In this document: one piece after another, positions 2,950-7,650 of the stretch
Position numbering within the stretch: the first letter of the stretch is position 1
Layout: every line of letters starts with the position of its first letter
Assembly (NCBI GenBank): GCA_020060485.1
Contig: JAGVAB010000008.1
Coordinates: 1 to 7,650 of the forward strand
Length of the DNA stretch: 7,650 bases
Source: Anaerolineales bacterium
GTDB taxonomy: Bacteria; Chloroflexota; Anaerolineae; Anaerolineales; Anaerolineaceae
Reading direction: 5' to 3'
Position numbers and translations under genes: made by a program
The notes under the pieces: generated by a model
What the model was told of the DNA's origin: nothing
Seen by the model: the letters and a program-made list of their open reading frames with translations, nothing else
Databases searched by the model: none

Positions 2950-3618
2950 ATGATTGAGGAACACAACCCGCAGGAAATTGAAACAAACGCTTTGCCTGCC
3001 AATTGGGCGATTATTTTCACAGCGGTCATTTCCATCCTGTTGGCGGGCGGAATTGGCTTTTGGCTGGGAAGCCGCCAGTCGGCAGGCCCGGGAACGGATT
3101 CGCCAGATGCTGGTTTTGCCCGTGACATGATGACTCACCATGCCCAGGCGGTTGACATGGCGACCATTATCCGTGATCGTACCGAGGATCCGCAGATTCG
3201 CCAGGTCGCCCTGGATATCATGTTGACCCAGCAGGCGCAGATCGGGCAAATGCAGGGCTGGCTGACGGTATGGGGATACCCCATTGCCAGTACCGATCCT
3301 GCCATGTCCTGGATGGGGACCCCCGGCGTCATGCCTGGTATGGCAACACCGGAACAGCTCAAACAGCTGCGCGATCTACAAGGAGTCGATGCTGATGGAT
3401 TGTTTTTGCAATTGATGATCATTCATCATCGTGGTGGAGTACAAATGGCGGATGCCGCACTTTCCAGGGCAAAAACCCATCAGGTGCTTTTGCTGGCACA
3501 GTCCATTCTTGATGCGCAGACCAGTGAAATCGAACTCATGCAGGACATGCTGAAGGAAAAAGGATTTCCACCTGTGCCGGAAGAACCTGACATGTTGCAT
3601 GACATGAATAGCCCCTGA
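2950..3618 (+). CDS. DUF305 domain protein (putative periplasmic copper-binding, CopM-like)
   Basis: This protein has 222 residues. Its ATG is placed by a strong GGAGGA at 2941-2946 that overlaps the preceding TAG. After a short cytoplasmic tail, one membrane helix (about residues 20-39) anchors the protein outside. The remainder is a helical, ferritin-like DUF305 repeat pair. The first half carries DMMTHHAQAVDMA (His-His at residues 63-64) and the second MIIHHRGGVQMADAAL (His-His at 159-160), each followed by a helix rich in Gln, Met and acidic residues. A Met/Gly/Pro linker (MSWMGTPGVMPGM) joins the halves, and the C-terminus adds more Met and His (PDMLHDM). The His/Met pattern is typical of the family, and the cyanobacterial relative CopM is reported to bind copper. 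The neighbouring Sco and PCuAC genes support a copper role. Copper binding by this protein is inference. Confidence 0.92.
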   Translation: MIEEHNPQEIETNALPANWAIIFTAVISILLAGGIGFWLGSRQSAGPGTDSPDAGFARDMMTHHAQAVDMATIIRDRTEDPQIRQVALDIMLTQQAQIGQMQGWLTVWGYPIASTDPAMSWMGTPGVMPGMATPEQLKQLRDLQGVDADGLFLQLMIIHHRGGVQMADAALSRAKTHQVLLLAQSILDAQTSEIELMQDMLKEKGFPPVPEEPDMLHDMNSP

Positions 3619-3627
3619 TCTATTAAT

Positions 3628-3954
3628 ATGATGAAATGGCATTGGTATATTTTACTGACAGGACTGGGACTCTACGGGCTTGCTGCCTTTCCTGGTCTAT
3701 TACCCCATGCGTTGGATAACATGGCATTGATTCTGGCAGGTATAACTATTGGGTCGGTTGCAGTCTTCGGTTTCGATCCAGTTCTTGTGGATCGCAGGTT
3801 GGGAACGCTCCTAATCTGGCTTGGGATCGCCATATTCAGCACAGGTATTGTCCTGGCTTGGTTTGGTCACCCGCATCTCTTAATACCGTTCTCCATACCC
3901 GCCGTGGGACTGTGCGTGTTCGGTCTGCGTATACTATATGAGAAAAAAGAATGA
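3628..3954 (+). CDS. Small four-helix integral membrane protein, unknown function
   Basis: I do not recognise this 108-residue protein as a named family. Four hydrophobic segments are visible at about residues 7-25, 31-50, 57-77 and 82-102, with a short basic loop (VDRRLG) between helices two and three and a charged tail (LYEKKE). Together with Trp/His in the N-terminal MMKWHWY and a His pair at GHPHLL these features look like a compact membrane subunit. There is no clear Shine-Dalgarno. Two tandem ATGs (3628 and 3631) offer alternative starts nine or twelve bases after the DUF305 stop, so coupled reinitiation is likely. Its stop overlaps the Sco start (ATGA, 3951-3954), which places it inside the copper operon and argues that it is a real gene. 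A role in copper delivery or oxidase assembly is only guilt by association. Confidence 0.72.
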   Translation: MMKWHWYILLTGLGLYGLAAFPGLLPHALDNMALILAGITIGSVAVFGFDPVLVDRRLGTLLIWLGIAIFSTGIVLAWFGHPHLLIPFSIPAVGLCVFGLRILYEKKE

Positions 3955-4565
3955 ACAGGAAACTTTCCTACACACCATTACTTTACATTGCTGGTATTTT
4001 GGCAATCACCACTGTGGTTGTTGTTTTGTTTCAAAAGCCGTACACATTTCATGGAACGGTGCTCACTCCGCCGCTTCCTGTGACGGACTTTACGCTTCAA
4101 ACTGGCGAAAGTGAAACCTTCAGCCTGAGCGCTGCCAGGGGAAAGCTTGTTTTGTTGTTCTTTGGCTACACCAGTTGTCCTGATGTGTGCCCGACAACAT
4201 TGGCAGAACTCAGGCAGGCTTCCGAAAACCTGGGCGATGACGCGCGGAATATTCAAGTTGTTATGGTCACCGCCGACCCTGAACGCGATACGCCTGAAAA
4301 AATGAAGGCGTATGTGGCGCACTTTGATCCGAATTTTATTGGAGTAAGCGGAAATCTCGCTGACCTTGAGGCAATCTGGGAGGAATTGGGAGTATTTGTT
4401 GAGAAGGAGGATACAGGGAGCGCGGCGGGCTACCTGGTGAGTCACACCTCCAGTGTGTATGTTCTTGACCGGAATGGGAATCTGATCCTGATGTTTCCCT
4501 ATGGAACCTCTGCGGTTGATATTGCAAGTGACTTGAGCGAACTGCTAAAGCAGACGAAACAATAA
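3951..4565 (+). CDS. Sco1/SenC family copper chaperone
   Basis: This protein has 204 residues and starts at the ATG overlapping the previous stop. An N-terminal membrane helix (about residues 9-27) anchors a thioredoxin-fold domain outside the cell. Key features are visible: the strand GKLVLLFFGYTSC leading into the CPDVC copper/redox motif (Cys76 and Cys80), CPTTLAELRQ, the MVTADPERDTPE segment that is diagnostic of Sco proteins, and the third copper ligand His165 in LVSHTSSVYVLD. Family members bind Cu(I)/Cu(II) through these two Cys and one His and help mature the CuA site of cytochrome c oxidase or act as thiol reductants for it. It is directly followed, three bases after its stop, by the spacer leading to the PCuAC gene, a known functional partner. 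All expected residues are present and length is normal, so it should be functional. Confidence 0.95.
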   Translation: MNRKLSYTPLLYIAGILAITTVVVVLFQKPYTFHGTVLTPPLPVTDFTLQTGESETFSLSAARGKLVLLFFGYTSCPDVCPTTLAELRQASENLGDDARNIQVVMVTADPERDTPEKMKAYVAHFDPNFIGVSGNLADLEAIWEELGVFVEKEDTGSAAGYLVSHTSSVYVLDRNGNLILMFPYGTSAVDIASDLSELLKQTKQ

Positions 4566-4582: not shown

Positions 4583-5011
4583 ATGAAGACCAGACTGATA
4601 ATGATATTGACGTTCTTCGCTACTTTGTTGGGCGCCTGCTCTGCCTCACGAGAAATGTCCATCCGCGATGCCTGGGCGCGTCCTGCCAGTGCAGGCGATA
4701 ACGGAGCGGCGTATTTCGTCATCGAGAATGGCACACCCTCCGCCGACACCCTGTTGAGTGTCTCGTCTGATATCGCCTCAGCCACAGAGGTGCATCTCAG
4801 CATGGTGATGGACGGCGGTGTCATGTCCATGAAACAGCAGGAGTCTGTTTCTGTGCCTGCCAAAGACAAAGTGGAATTCAAGCCTGGCGGCCTGCATGTA
4901 ATGTTCGTTGGGTTGACGCAGGATTTGAAGGTTGGCGATACGATTACCTTGACGCTCAACTTTGAAAACGCAGGGAACCGGATAATCGAAGTTCCAATAC
5001 GCGAGCCCTAA
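4583..5011 (+). CDS. PCuAC-type copper chaperone, lipoprotein
   Basis: This protein has 142 residues. The ATG at 4583 has GGAG at 4574-4577 in front; an earlier in-frame TTG at 4568 has no such site and would spoil the signal. The N-terminus MKTRLIMILTFFATLLGAC is a lipoprotein signal with lipobox LGAC, so Cys19 would be lipidated and the protein tethered to the outer face of the membrane. The mature domain has the family opening (IRDAWARPASAGDNGAAYF) and the complete copper site H-L-x10-M-x21-H-x-M: His71, Met83, His105, Met107, at exactly the canonical spacing H(M)X10MX21HXM with Leu in place of the first Met. PCuAC proteins bind Cu(I) and pass it to Sco or to the CuA site. The adjacent Sco gene fits this. 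The Cu site is seen directly in the sequence; the transfer role is family knowledge. Confidence 0.94.
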   Translation: MKTRLIMILTFFATLLGACSASREMSIRDAWARPASAGDNGAAYFVIENGTPSADTLLSVSSDIASATEVHLSMVMDGGVMSMKQQESVSVPAKDKVEFKPGGLHVMFVGLTQDLKVGDTITLTLNFENAGNRIIEVPIREP

Positions 5012-5080: not shown

Positions 5081-5371
5081 ATGAACGTATCTCATCGCAT
5101 AATAATGATTGTGACACTGGCTCTTCTTCTGGTTGGGCTGTCTGCGCATATATTGCCAGCTGCATCCCTGTGCGACTGTGTATCCCAGTCTCAGGAAGAT
5201 GCCAGGGCATCAAACCTGGATACTTGCCTGGTGTGTCAGTTGCAAACTGGTATTCATTCTGCGCCATGCCCGGCTGATCCAAACCATGAAATCGTACAGC
5301 AAGTGAATATCCGGATCAATTTGCGATCATTGGAACGTGCCTTTCCGGTTTTACATCCCCCCATCGCTTAA
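5081..5371 (+). CDS. Small secreted Cys-rich protein, unknown function
   Basis: I do not recognise this 96-residue protein. Residues 1-28 look like a signal peptide (basic NVSHR, a hydrophobic run to about residue 22, then small residues AA at 27-28). There is no valid lipobox in front of the first Cys (ASLC has Leu at -1). The mature part begins with a CDC pair (Cys31, Cys33), followed by CLVC (Cys49, Cys52), His59, Cys63 and His69, giving five Cys and several His in about 40 residues. This looks like a metal- or thiol-redox site. The tail (about residues 70-96) is polar and ends HPPIA. The start is not backed by a Shine-Dalgarno, but the ATG directly follows the inverted repeat and the candidate promoter. 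Sitting between PCuAC and a rhodanese, it could be a copper-binding or redox accessory protein; that is inference. Coding status is likely but not certain. Confidence 0.62.
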   Translation: MNVSHRIIMIVTLALLLVGLSAHILPAASLCDCVSQSQEDARASNLDTCLVCQLQTGIHSAPCPADPNHEIVQQVNIRINLRSLERAFPVLHPPIA

Positions 5372-5437: not shown

Positions 5438-5474
5438 CGATTTAACCTTAGCCTGATTTATTTTTGGAGTTCCT

Positions 5475-5945
5475 ATGAAAAAAAGAAAGAATCAGAAATC
5501 CCCTGTTTCGCTCTTCCTCGCACTTGGCGGCGGACTCTTGTTGATTGCCGCCGCAATCCTATTGGCGAATCAAAATGCTCCTGCTGTCCCGACGCCTGTT
5601 ACATCCCATGAAGAGGAGACATACCCCGATATTTCACGTGTAAGCCTGAACGATGCCAATTCTGCTTTGGAGGAAGGTGCCGCTGTTATAGTGGATGTAC
5701 GTTCTATAGAAGCTTATCAAGCTGCTCATGTTGCCGGTGCGATCAACATTCCGCTTGCCGAACTTGAAGCGCGCCTGGCGGAATTGGATAAGGCGCAATG
5801 GATCATTACCTACTGTACCTGACCGAGTGAAGAATCGAGCGCCCGTGCGGCGTCCATTTTGCTTGAAAACGGATTCAGTAAGGTCACCCCAATGCTCGGC
5901 GGTTTTGAAGCCTGGATGAATGCCGGTTATCCCGTTGAGCCATGA
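5475..5945 (+). CDS. Membrane-anchored rhodanese with in-frame TGA, probable selenocysteine (Sec116)
   Basis: Read through a single TGA at 5820-5822, this frame encodes 156 residues. The start ATG at 5475 has GGAG (5466-5469). A basic head and one hydrophobic helix (about residues 13-31) anchor it outside. The rhodanese domain follows: DISRVSLNDANSALEEG, then VDVRSIEAYQAAHVAGAINIPL, then the active-site strand ITYCT, the TGA, and PSEESSARAASILLENGF, with MLGGFEAWMNAGYP closing the fold at TGA 5943-5945. Rhodaneses of this subfamily normally read YCxCPxExSSARA, so TGA replaces the second Cys exactly (Cys114, position 116). Counted back from the conserved helix S-A-R-A-A, position 116 is where the catalytic residue of ordinary C(X)5 rhodanese loops lies. 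Sequence after the TGA is intact to the end of the domain. The alternatives are a recent nonsense mutation or a base error. The family transfers sulfane sulfur or acts as persulfide carrier; Sec would make a stronger nucleophile. Confidence 0.8.
5820..5822 (+). other. Candidate selenocysteine UGA codon
   Basis: This TGA sits in frame at codon 116 of the rhodanese, in the motif Y-C-T-[TGA]-P-S-E-E-S-S. A stop here would remove the catalytic-loop remainder and the last helix and strand, leaving a non-folding fragment. One base change from TGT or TGC would give it, so mutation must be excluded. The downstream frame shows normal family conservation, with no further stop until the expected end. 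Confidence 0.7.
5837..5855 (+). promoter_or_regulatory. Candidate bacterial SECIS hairpin
   Basis: Directly after the TGA, CGCC (5840-5843) pairs with GGCG (5849-5852) around the five-base loop CGTGC. A G-T pair (5839/5853), an A-C mismatch and a G-C pair (5837/5855) extend the stem. The loop starts 21 bases after the TGA and has G as its second base. This agrees with the loose bacterial SECIS rules: apical loop 16-37 bases downstream, short stem, G among the first two loop bases. The stem is short and lies in GC-rich coding sequence, so chance cannot be excluded. Confidence 0.5.
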
Positions 5946-5971: not shown

Positions 5972-6397
5972 ATGTTTGCAAAATTAAATGTATGCCTGAT
6001 GCTAATTGGTATCGGCTTGTTTTCGCTTATCGCCTGCCAGTCACAGGAACAGATTGGCATCCAGGCTGAAATGAATGGCGTTCCTTATCGGGTGGTTTCT
6101 GTCCAGGAATTACAGACCATGCTCGAAAACAAGGATTTCACAATGATCAATGTTCACACGCCGTGGGAGGGCGACATTCCTCAAACGGATTTGCGCCTGT
6201 CGTATGATCAGATCGAGCAGAACCTGAACCAACTTCCGGCGGAAAAGGACGCGAAGATCGTTGTCTACTGCCTGACTTCTGGCATGGCGAAGAAAGCCGT
6301 TGCTACGTTGTTGAGTCAAGGCTACACAAACATCTGGATGTTGGAAGGCGGGACAACTGCCTGGCTGGAGGCGGGATTGACGATTGATAAGGAATGA
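5972..6397 (+). CDS. Rhodanese-like domain lipoprotein
   Basis: This protein has 141 residues. The start ATG at 5972 is preceded by GGAG (5963-5966), 26 bases after the end of the Sec-type rhodanese. The N-terminus ends in lipobox LIAC, making Cys22 the lipid-modified first residue. The domain is a variant rhodanese: YRVVSVQELQTMLENKDFTMINVHTPWEGDIPQTD takes the place of the usual DVR...GHIPGA segment, followed by IVVYCLTSGMAKKAVATLL with the presumed catalytic Cys100 and MLEGGTTAWLEAGL. The 'NVHTPWEGDIPxTD' form is known to me from other extracytoplasmic rhodanese lipoproteins, where it replaces the canonical one. The active loop CLTSGMA is one residue longer than the common CRSGNR. It probably carries persulfide or sulfane sulfur on the outer face. 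It sits directly after a second rhodanese with a membrane helix, so the two may work in series; their exact partners are unknown. Confidence 0.88.
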   Translation: MFAKLNVCLMLIGIGLFSLIACQSQEQIGIQAEMNGVPYRVVSVQELQTMLENKDFTMINVHTPWEGDIPQTDLRLSYDQIEQNLNQLPAEKDAKIVVYCLTSGMAKKAVATLLSQGYTNIWMLEGGTTAWLEAGLTIDKE

Positions 6398-6431: not shown

Positions 6432-6770
6432 ATGAAACGGAATTTATCACGCCGTGATTTTCTAAAATTTGCAGGTATGGGGCTGGGCGCAATTGCGCTC
6501 AGCCCTATCAATCTTGAGTCGGTCTACACACCTAAGCCTCTGCCGCAATTCCCGAACAATGAGATGCTTGGGCGCCTTCTTGGCACAACGCGGGTCACGA
6601 ATCGCCCAAGCAACGATCCCTTTCAGGCTTCCGCCTTGGGGACGTTATACGATGACAAGCTTGTCGAATGGGGGCGCGAGGTGGTGGGGAATGCTGTTGG
6701 TCTGACCAACCAAAGATTTTTCGCTGGACAACCCCACATGTTTCCCTCGCCCAAAGCGAACAGCGTATGA
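6432..6770 (+). pseudogene. Tat-signal protein, probable N-terminal remnant of an L,D-transpeptidase-like protein
   Basis: This open frame of 112 residues runs from the ATG at 6432, chosen because GGAG (6424-6427) precedes it and the Tat motif then lies near the start. An alternative ATG at 6408 adds eight residues. The head NLSRRDFLKFAGMGLGAIALSP is a clear twin-arginine signal. The short mature part (LGRLLGTTRVTNRPSNDPFQASALGTLYDDKLVEWGREVVG...LTNQRF) resembles the SH3-like N-terminal segment of Chloroflexota Tat-exported L,D-transpeptidases, but the catalytic YkuD domain (HxnSHGC) is absent. After NQR the sequence drifts and stops at 6770, with no continuation in any frame before the next gene. 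A truncated remnant is likeliest; a short functional domain protein cannot be excluded. A 26-bp palindrome lies in its signal-coding part. Confidence 0.5.
6480..6505. repeat. 26-bp near-perfect palindrome inside the Tat-signal coding region
   Basis: Left arm GGGCTGGGCGCAA (6480-6492) and right arm TTGCGCTCAGCCC (6493-6505) are reverse complements apart from one position that still pairs as G-T in RNA. The inner 12 bases GCGCAATTGCGC are an exact palindrome. Allowing another G-T it extends to about 6477-6508. It encodes the hydrophobic Tat-signal stretch GLGAIALSP. Confidence 0.75.
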
Positions 6771-6879: not shown

Positions 6880-7650
6880 ATGACAAAAGTATCAAGCTCT
6901 ACACCTTCAGCGCCTCAGCCTGTTTTCAATGAACGCTTGCGGGTATTTCTCCATGCGCTCCTTTTTGTGCTTGGATTCTCGCTGGTCTTTGTGATCGGCT
7001 GGGGCGGATCGGTGACAGCGTTGGGGCAGTTATTTGGCGTCTATAAGCGGGTCATCGCGCAGATCGGCGGTGTGATTGTGATCATGTTTGGTTTGGCAAC
7101 CCTGGAAGTGATTCGTATTCCGTGGTTTTATGCCGATACCCGTGCCCAATACTCCGGTCAACGCGGAACGTATAGCGGGTCGGCACTTATGGGCATTTTC
7201 TTTGCCGCAGGTTGGAGCCCATGCATTGGCGCTACTCTGGGAGCAATCCTGACAATGGGACTGAACCAGCAAAGGGTGGGGGAAGCCATGTGGCTGTCAT
7301 CTGGATATTCGCTCGGCTTGGGCATTCCATTCCTGGTGATGGCAATTGGACTGGAACGCGCTACCGGCTGGCTCAAACGCATGCGACCCTATCAACAATA
7401 TTTCAAAATCGCCAGCGGCATCTTCATCATAGCGATTGGGATCTTGTTGTTGACAAACACCATGAGCCTGATCGCGATCTGGGCGTTCAAGAATGGATAC
7501 TACATTGATTCCTTTTCCCGTTATGCTGCCGCACCTACTTATCTTACAGCAATTGTCGCTGGGTTGCTTTCCTTCATTTCTCCCTGTGTTCTTCCGCTTG
7601 TACCTGCCTACCTCGGCTATCTGAGTGGACATACAATTCAGAAATCCTAA
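6880..7650 (+). CDS. ccdA: CcdA/DsbD-type thiol-disulfide electron transporter, apparently circularly permuted
   Basis: This protein has 256 residues. The ATG at 6880 follows a TTG in frame (6877) and is the simpler start, although a Shine-Dalgarno is weak. Hydrophobic helices occur at about residues 23-46, 60-80, 101-128, 135-157, 172-200 and 221-247. The CcdA helix HALLFVLGFSLVFV, normally the second, comes first; the helix FFAAGWSPCIGATLGAILTMG with Cys115 (normally TM4) is third. The end of the protein is GLLSFISPCVLPLVPAYLGYLSG with Cys236 (normally TM1), then a short tail and TAA. Both membrane Cys needed for electron transfer are present, only in reverse order, so function may be kept. 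CcdA moves electrons from cytoplasmic thioredoxin to periplasmic thiol proteins for cytochrome c maturation or Sco/rhodanese reduction. Alternatives are a hybrid of two broken ccdA copies or an assembly join. Confidence 0.85.
   Translation: MTKVSSSTPSAPQPVFNERLRVFLHALLFVLGFSLVFVIGWGGSVTALGQLFGVYKRVIAQIGGVIVIMFGLATLEVIRIPWFYADTRAQYSGQRGTYSGSALMGIFFAAGWSPCIGATLGAILTMGLNQQRVGEAMWLSSGYSLGLGIPFLVMAIGLERATGWLKRMRPYQQYFKIASGIFIIAIGILLLTNTMSLIAIWAFKNGYYIDSFSRYAAAPTYLTAIVAGLLSFISPCVLPLVPAYLGYLSGHTIQKS

Follow-up and report, generated by a model that had tools for sequence, protein, structure and literature searches.

Predictions of selenocysteine (Sec) rhodaneses go back to the Sargasso Sea survey (excerpts of PMC1088965) and recur in ocean metagenomes (excerpts of PMC2398784) and in a 2022 review (excerpts of PMC9312934). 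In the pertinent sections of a 2026 review, five forms are distinguished, with CxU as form 3 (PMC13188914). The protein analyzed here, encoded in a 7,650-nucleotide stretch of DNA from an Anaerolineales bacterium (hereafter, the window), finds its best NCBIfam match in NF041203 (rhodanese_LYCAU, form 3), with which it shares the rhodanese fold and the YC-x-U motif. However, it scores 77 bits against an equivalog cut-off of 115, and it differs in its YCTUP loop, an added membrane anchor and its Chloroflexota clade, as judged against the family model. With the same model, eight further Chloroflexota members score 60.3-86.9 bits; two Cys homologs reach 97.5 and 100.2 bits. By motif, the window protein resembles form 3; by NCBI's cut-off rule, it is not a member.

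The other described systems are further removed. TsoB (NF045694), which resembles a rhodanese/DsbD fusion, is also a Sec rhodanese, and a DsbD_TM protein is encoded in the window three genes downstream; however, TsoB carries two Sec residues in a UxxxxU motif, whereas the window protein reaches 30.2 bits against 805 and has a single domain with one Sec in CxU. Moreover, the rhodanese and the DsbD_TM protein are separate genes, and a CcdA neighbor is present only here and at one other locus (L020) in the flanks examined. Forms 1, 2 and 4 (UxxS, UxxG) likewise place Sec in a rhodanese-like protein but differ in motif, a comparison made from the table of PMC13188914 (seen in excerpt). The CxC rhodaneses (YCTCPxE, e.g. 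P0122-P0124) are identical in loop and column, with Cys in place of Sec and, in P0121-P0124, no membrane anchor discernible by eye. In the literature searched, which left most subscription papers outside its scope, we found no report of a Chloroflexota or Anaerolineae branch of Sec rhodaneses, although the groundwater survey cited in PMC13188914 may include it; the excerpts of PMC1794560 held no such report, and PMC12013277 has no mention of the terms searched for this branch. The original prediction had presented extracytoplasmic selenol chemistry at this locus as unusual, a claim that has to be narrowed given that Sec rhodaneses, CxU included, are already in print in the excerpts cited. Within the literature searched, CxU Sec rhodaneses are a known kind, and the membrane-anchored Chloroflexota branch and the UxU forms described below appear to be new.

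The window lies on contig C61 of a draft genome bin (3.94 Mb, 149 contigs, 84.2% complete, 3.85% contamination). The features of the rhodanese gene are as follows.

5475..5945, + strand: putative selenocysteine rhodanese gene, 156 residues with Sec at 116 (open reading frame plus read-through)
5466..5469, + strand: Shine-Dalgarno-like GGAG ahead of the ATG at 5475 (sequence)
5820..5822, + strand: TGA predicted to be read as selenocysteine 116 (sequence and aligned relatives)
5814..5816, + strand: TGT codon of Cys114, the Cys of the CxU motif (sequence and alignment of relatives)
5505..5576, + strand: predicted N-terminal membrane anchor, residues 11-34 (model helix and hydropathy)
5649..5921, + strand: rhodanese domain (PF00581, residues 59-149)
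5839..5853, + strand: candidate bacterial SECIS hairpin GCGCC-CGUGC-GGCGU (consensus fold, synonymous freeze and covariation)

The frame starts with ATG 5475, meets the in-frame TGA at 5820-5822 (residue 116) and stops at TGA 5943-5945, with 40 sense codons between the two TGAs, exactly as originally described. The length of this open stretch proves nothing by itself because 40 open codons would occur by chance with a probability of approximately 0.15; the weight is carried by the relatives. The further claim that read-through completes a rhodanese fold agrees with the Pfam result, in which PF00581 matches the read-through protein with 64.9 bits (cut-off 22.2), its match at residues 59-149 spanning the TGA. 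A structure model derived from 29 read-through sequences, including that of the window, has a mean pLDDT of 83.1, with means of 92-98 in ten-residue blocks from residue 51 onward. Among PDB structures, it is closest to the rhodanese domain of 3tp9 (1.3 A over 104 columns).

That an ordinary Cys rhodanese acquired its TGA through a nonsense mutation or an error in sequencing, which would make the gene a pseudogene or an artefact, has to be considered given that one base separates TGA from a Cys codon and that the bin is a draft. The decisive comparison is with the relatives, of which the closest among named genomes belong to Anaerolineae-type Chloroflexota. At the DNA level, named genomes supplied 16 loci, and the best matches in 101 genomes supplied more. 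In the first-round alignment of 57 rows, 51 rows have TGA at the same column, corresponding to 36 distinct sequences (the window's own included) from many genera; L061-L065 and L070, which make up the rest, have the CR[ST]G loop of ordinary rhodaneses. When 301 Chloroflexota genomes were drawn across the phylum, 39 of them had a match at 1e-18, among which TGA occupies the column in 29 and lies three codons later in one (G173, locus L111 near base 1076, YCTGATU); the other nine have no TGA there, six carrying YGDA and three (L062, L105, L107) ordinary loops. The presence of the TGA in other genomes, which the original prediction had named as a check, is thus borne out at both depths.

The sequence beyond the TGA was also compared, in 630 pairs of the 36 distinct TGA sequences. 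The pN/pS ratio was 0.40 over codons +11 to +35 (pN<pS in 626 pairs) and 0.30 over codons +24 to +39 (pN<pS in 627 pairs), against 0.36 over codons -14 to -1 upstream. By these substitution patterns, the sequence after the TGA is under purifying selection, the opposite of the downstream decay that had been named as a ground for refutation. With the TGA kept in 36 distinct sequences and 29 of the 39 phylum genomes, and with downstream pN/pS at 0.30-0.40, we consider mutation or error to be ruled out for practical purposes, an extremely improbable account of this gene.

Several observations on the distribution of the family can be recorded here. YGDA replaces YCTU in L095, L102, L103, L104, L106 and L113, all from one Chloroflexota family (f35), whose homologs lack both chalcogen residues yet come from genomes with selB. 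The host bin itself contains a second Sec rhodanese island (L075, contig C127) that shares 99.97-99.99% identity with L038 and L023 of other genomes across 3-6 kb, so that either recent transfer or a mis-binned contig is implied, and a third TGA rhodanese (L066/L076, contig C121) of approximately 50% identity, with none of the window's neighbor genes in the flanks examined. None of 28 pattern matches in viral contigs encodes a relative, and among 190 plasmid records no match reaches 60% identity or covers 80% of the query.

Could the UGA instead be a true stop, or be read through by an ordinary tRNA such as that for Trp, giving a 115-residue protein and a selenium-free read-through product? 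Among the best 120 of 307 protein homologs, a list that also counts the entry of the window itself, 109 terminate at YCT, directly before the TGA, as anticipated by the claim that a gene caller would end the gene at 5822; of the other 11, ten read on with W in this position, and P0072 has diverged upstream of it. At face value, these entries favor a stop or a Trp codon. Judging from the proteins only, we take the W-bearing entries to be gene calls made with a code in which TGA is Trp; a reading of these full-length homologs as possible non-Cys variants was dropped in favor of this one. More distant homologs carry Cys at the site. When only the post-TGA part served as the query, four YCTC proteins and one YCTW protein were found, and a search from the four YCTC proteins returned 179, of which the best 120 were listed. 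Among the matches listed, 119 proteins were new in these two later searches, and 77 of these have YCxC (58 have YCTCPxE); hence, the TGA falls on the second Cys of the YCxCPxE motif, as originally proposed, and Cys does occur at this column in homologs. In addition, the rhodanese gene and several of its neighbors end on TGA as a normal stop, which argues against read-through by an ordinary tRNA. Together with the nearly frozen, covarying SECIS codons and the sel genes described below, these results make a true stop or ordinary read-through highly unlikely, if slightly less so than mutation or error.

Another 32 of the 119 new proteins among the matches listed, 68-88 residues long, also end at YCT; they lie among P0168-P0225, and 29 of them have 68-69 residues. 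These are probably a second, soluble Sec lineage of unannotated Sec rhodaneses, a reading made at the protein level. The Cys forms P0121-P0124 (109-136 residues) show no membrane anchor by eye. In a tree joining the 36 Sec rows with 77 Cys rows, two changes account for the Sec label, compared to a mean of 31 under shuffling, with one Cys row (P0178) placed among the Sec rows. The direction from Cys to Sec is an assumption, the trees having few columns and arbitrary roots.

The machinery for Sec insertion is encoded in the host bin, where selA, selB, selC and selD are all present; a lack of selB/selC would have weighed against the prediction. SelB scores 344.8 bits (cut-off 242.25), SelD 352 bits (cut-off 125; L009, contig C31) and tRNA-Sec (selC) 69.3 bits (gathering threshold 47), with anticodon TCA (UCA); selA is split at contig ends into pieces of 424.3 bits (positions 1-302) and 102.1 bits (positions 310-453). 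The host selD carries an in-frame TGA of its own, in CAG-U-ASKLN. Because the bin is a draft with some contamination, single sel genes could stem from another organism. In the host and 100 relatives, selB is above the cut-off in 79 of the 101 genomes, namely in all 25 genomes with a TGA rhodanese (scored among the matches listed, down to about 1.6e-11) versus 54 of the 76 others (Fisher p 0.0014, uncorrected for kinship). At the depth of the phylum, selB does not discriminate because, in 25 of the 39 matching genomes, it exceeds the cut-off in 24, including all nine that lack TGA at the column.

A hairpin suited to direct Sec insertion follows the UGA. Its loop starts 21 nt after the UGA, with a 5-nt loop that has G in the second position, a 5-bp stem and, for the stretch that contains it, an MFE of -13 kcal/mol. 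The bacterial SECIS model, as laid out in the excerpts of PMC13188914 (Fig. 2 legend), describes a loop of 3-9 nt, a stem of 4-16 bp, G in the first two loop positions, a distance of 16-37 nt from the UGA and an MFE of at most -7.5 kcal/mol; the hairpin agrees with all four criteria published there. The hairpin codons +6 to +10 (AGC GCC CGT GCG GCG) show almost no synonymous variation: in pairs with the same residue, the same codon is used in a fraction of 0.89-1.0, versus 0.25-0.76 elsewhere up to +35, and upstream only codons -1 (ACC, 1.0) and -3 (0.84) come near this level. Taken alone, the window's hairpin is no more stable than shuffled sequences (z -0.95), and in the set of 34 distinct sequences that excludes L048 and L057, covariation is weak, with 33 of 500 shuffles scoring as high. 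When 19 members were added (53 sequences, 52 distinct), three of the five stem pairs had changed on both sides in a compensatory manner, in five cells. None of 500 shuffles matched the covariation score and one of 500 matched the count of double-change pairs, with kinship ignored. Seven plasmid Cys homologs all lack the hairpin sequence at that place, although they are too distant for a strong control.

Because the TGA is conserved, the downstream frame selected, the homologs carry Cys, and a SECIS and the Sec machinery are in the bin, we conclude from sequence comparison that the gene almost certainly encodes a selenoprotein, with UGA 5820-5822 decoded as Sec into a full rhodanese, and is not a truncated gene. 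SelB and tRNA-Sec would carry out the decoding, guided by the hairpin at 5839-5853. The wider explanation, which combines Sec decoding, an extracytoplasmic rhodanese and a CxU center, is very probable, marginally less so than Sec decoding taken by itself.

The product would be a rhodanese of 156 residues that is anchored through a single N-terminal helix and has its catalytic domain outside the cytoplasmic membrane. The helix is modeled at residues 11-34, at low pLDDT, and its best 19-residue Kyte-Doolittle mean is 2.63, downstream of a K/R-rich start. Because of this anchor and its charge pattern, the extracytoplasmic location appears likely.

The YC-T-U-P loop is two residues longer than the usual rhodanese loop, so that either Cys114 or Sec116 may occupy the place of the catalytic Cys, depending on the alignment. 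Aligned without gaps to 6mxv, residue 116 falls on the loop Cys; aligned to 3tp9 with a two-residue gap, Cys114 does. The original placement of the TGA at the catalytic Cys accordingly holds in the 6mxv register but not in that of 3tp9. Because either residue aligns on the loop Cys, we propose a two-residue center. Cys114, invariant in alignment A1, is encoded by the single Cys codon of the gene (TGT 5814-5816), where the original prediction had spoken of very few. In this proposal, the Cys114-Thr-Sec116 pair would form a selenol/selenenylsulfide center at the mouth of the rhodanese loop, with Sec116 as the nucleophile that takes sulfane sulfur or opens a disulfide and Cys114 as the resolving residue. 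The center would act on extracytoplasmic thiols, in the subgroup that includes the window near the copper-site proteins Sco and PCuAC. This exchange mechanism, derived from position and general Sec/Cys chemistry, is tentative, with a chance that we place a little short of even. A selenoprotein that is a plain thiosulfate or persulfide sulfurtransferase, with Cys114 catalytic and Sec116 only tuning the loop, would suit the 3tp9 register; given that the 6mxv register instead sets residue 116 on the loop Cys and that residue 116 is Sec in CxU and UxU forms alike, this reading is unlikely, albeit the strongest competitor to the exchange mechanism.

The neighboring genes were examined for indications of function.

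3951..4565, + strand: Sco/SenC copper chaperone (PF02630, 141 bits)
4583..5011, + strand: PCu(A)C copper chaperone (PF04314, 125.1 bits)
5081..5371, + strand: small Cys-rich protein, signal-like start by eye (no Pfam family)
5972..6397, + strand: second rhodanese, Cys-type, lipobox-like start by eye (PF00581, 41.3 bits)
2-748: P-type ATPase, heavy-metal type (Cd-type model 224 bits, copper model 153.5)
2950-3618: DUF305 protein, CopM-type metallochaperone (95.6 bits, cut-off 90)
6880-7650: CcdA/DsbD-type membrane protein (DsbD_TM), three genes downstream of the Sec rhodanese

The CcdA/DsbD-type protein looks circularly permuted, with residues 1-194 matching DsbD_TM positions 41-216 and the C-terminal 62 residues matching positions 6-36 below the cut-off; the DsbD_TM match at L020 is equal in length. 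A Tat-signal protein of 112 residues at 6432-6770 may be what is left of a larger protein. A label of CopA for the P-type ATPase was discarded, as Cd-type and Zn/Cd-type models outscore the copper model.

In the flanking DNA examined around the 36 distinct TGA sequences, Sco and/or PCuAC lie upstream of eight copies, seven of which are also accompanied by the small Cys-rich protein and the second rhodanese. A P-type ATPase alone is found upstream of three more (L042, L043, L054), and the other 25 have no Sco, PCuAC or related P-type ATPase in these flanks. The setting beside Sco, PCuAC and CcdA to which the original prediction drew attention is therefore recurrent in a subgroup as far as Sco and PCuAC are concerned; a conserved link to CcdA is unsupported, being limited to the window's contig and L020 in the flanks examined. 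Outside the copper subgroup, ten ORFs at seven members included no constant neighbor common to all: L032 and L035 have an M3 peptidase immediately upstream, L098 and L100 have a universal stress protein downstream, and the other ORFs are AAA/M41, M20, FeoB-like, Fe-S/CCG or of no family.

These contexts bear on whether the CxU pair of the selenoprotein might bind or buffer a metal (copper or mercury) with no sulfur transfer. The eight copies beside Sco and/or PCuAC and the three with an ATPase related to the window's heavy-metal ATPase are compatible with such a role, whereas the 25 of 36 copies with no such genes in the flanks examined and the peptidase, Usp, Fe-S, transport-type or unassigned ORFs at the seven other loci run against it, and we judge metal binding improbable. 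A role at copper sites is a lead for one subgroup only and a doubtful one, our low confidence in it having been reduced slightly further because the copper model is not the best for the neighboring ATPase; sulfur exchange at the CxU center is the mechanism that we prefer.

In some distant relatives, a second selenocysteine appears to accompany the first. In six Chloroflexota genomes from four families, TGA occupies the columns of both Cys114 and Sec116, giving YU[TA]UPxE, at the following loci.

L094:1690-1749, + strand: UxU locus
L096:3598-3657, + strand: UxU locus
L097: UxU locus
L098: UxU locus
L099: UxU locus
L100: UxU locus

The same hairpin is present in these genomes, its loop lying 27 nt after the first UGA and 21 nt after the second; in L097, both sides of one stem pair are changed, and two residues change along with them. 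The UxU frames show no membrane segment near the domain by eye. SelB passes in five of the six genomes, and in the sixth (G218) it is found in pieces only (positions 1-74 and 201-580). By well-supported branches of the tree, the UxU label requires at least two changes, which may be two gains or one gain and one loss, in a tree whose bootstrap had not converged. The universal stress protein genes downstream of two UxU rhodaneses are at L098:3557-4717 (+) and L100:2066-3307 (-). UxU is absent from the five rhodanese forms in the table of PMC13188914 (seen in excerpt), and a full-text literature search for selenoprotein with UxU, whose single hit concerned neurodegenerative disease, found no printed UxU rhodanese.

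Viewed across the phylum, these forms would fit a Chloroflexota-wide family of Sec rhodaneses in which CxC gave rise to CxU and CxU to UxU, perhaps repeatedly, with both UGAs decoded as Sec under one SECIS, and in which the membrane-anchored branch takes selenol chemistry outside the cell membrane and, in some genomes, into copper-site maturation. We regard this scenario as somewhat favored, well below the confidence that attaches to Sec decoding in the window.

The present results imply that an entire protein family is stored in the databases as 115-residue stumps devoid of the second half of the fold, a case of systematic misannotation. The unusually invariant SECIS would be well suited to testing how SelB recognizes its target in Chloroflexota. 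The UxU forms, if real, would be a naturally occurring example of one SECIS serving a pair of selenocysteines two residues apart, and the CxC, CxU and UxU proteins would then form a series in which to ask what each selenium atom buys.
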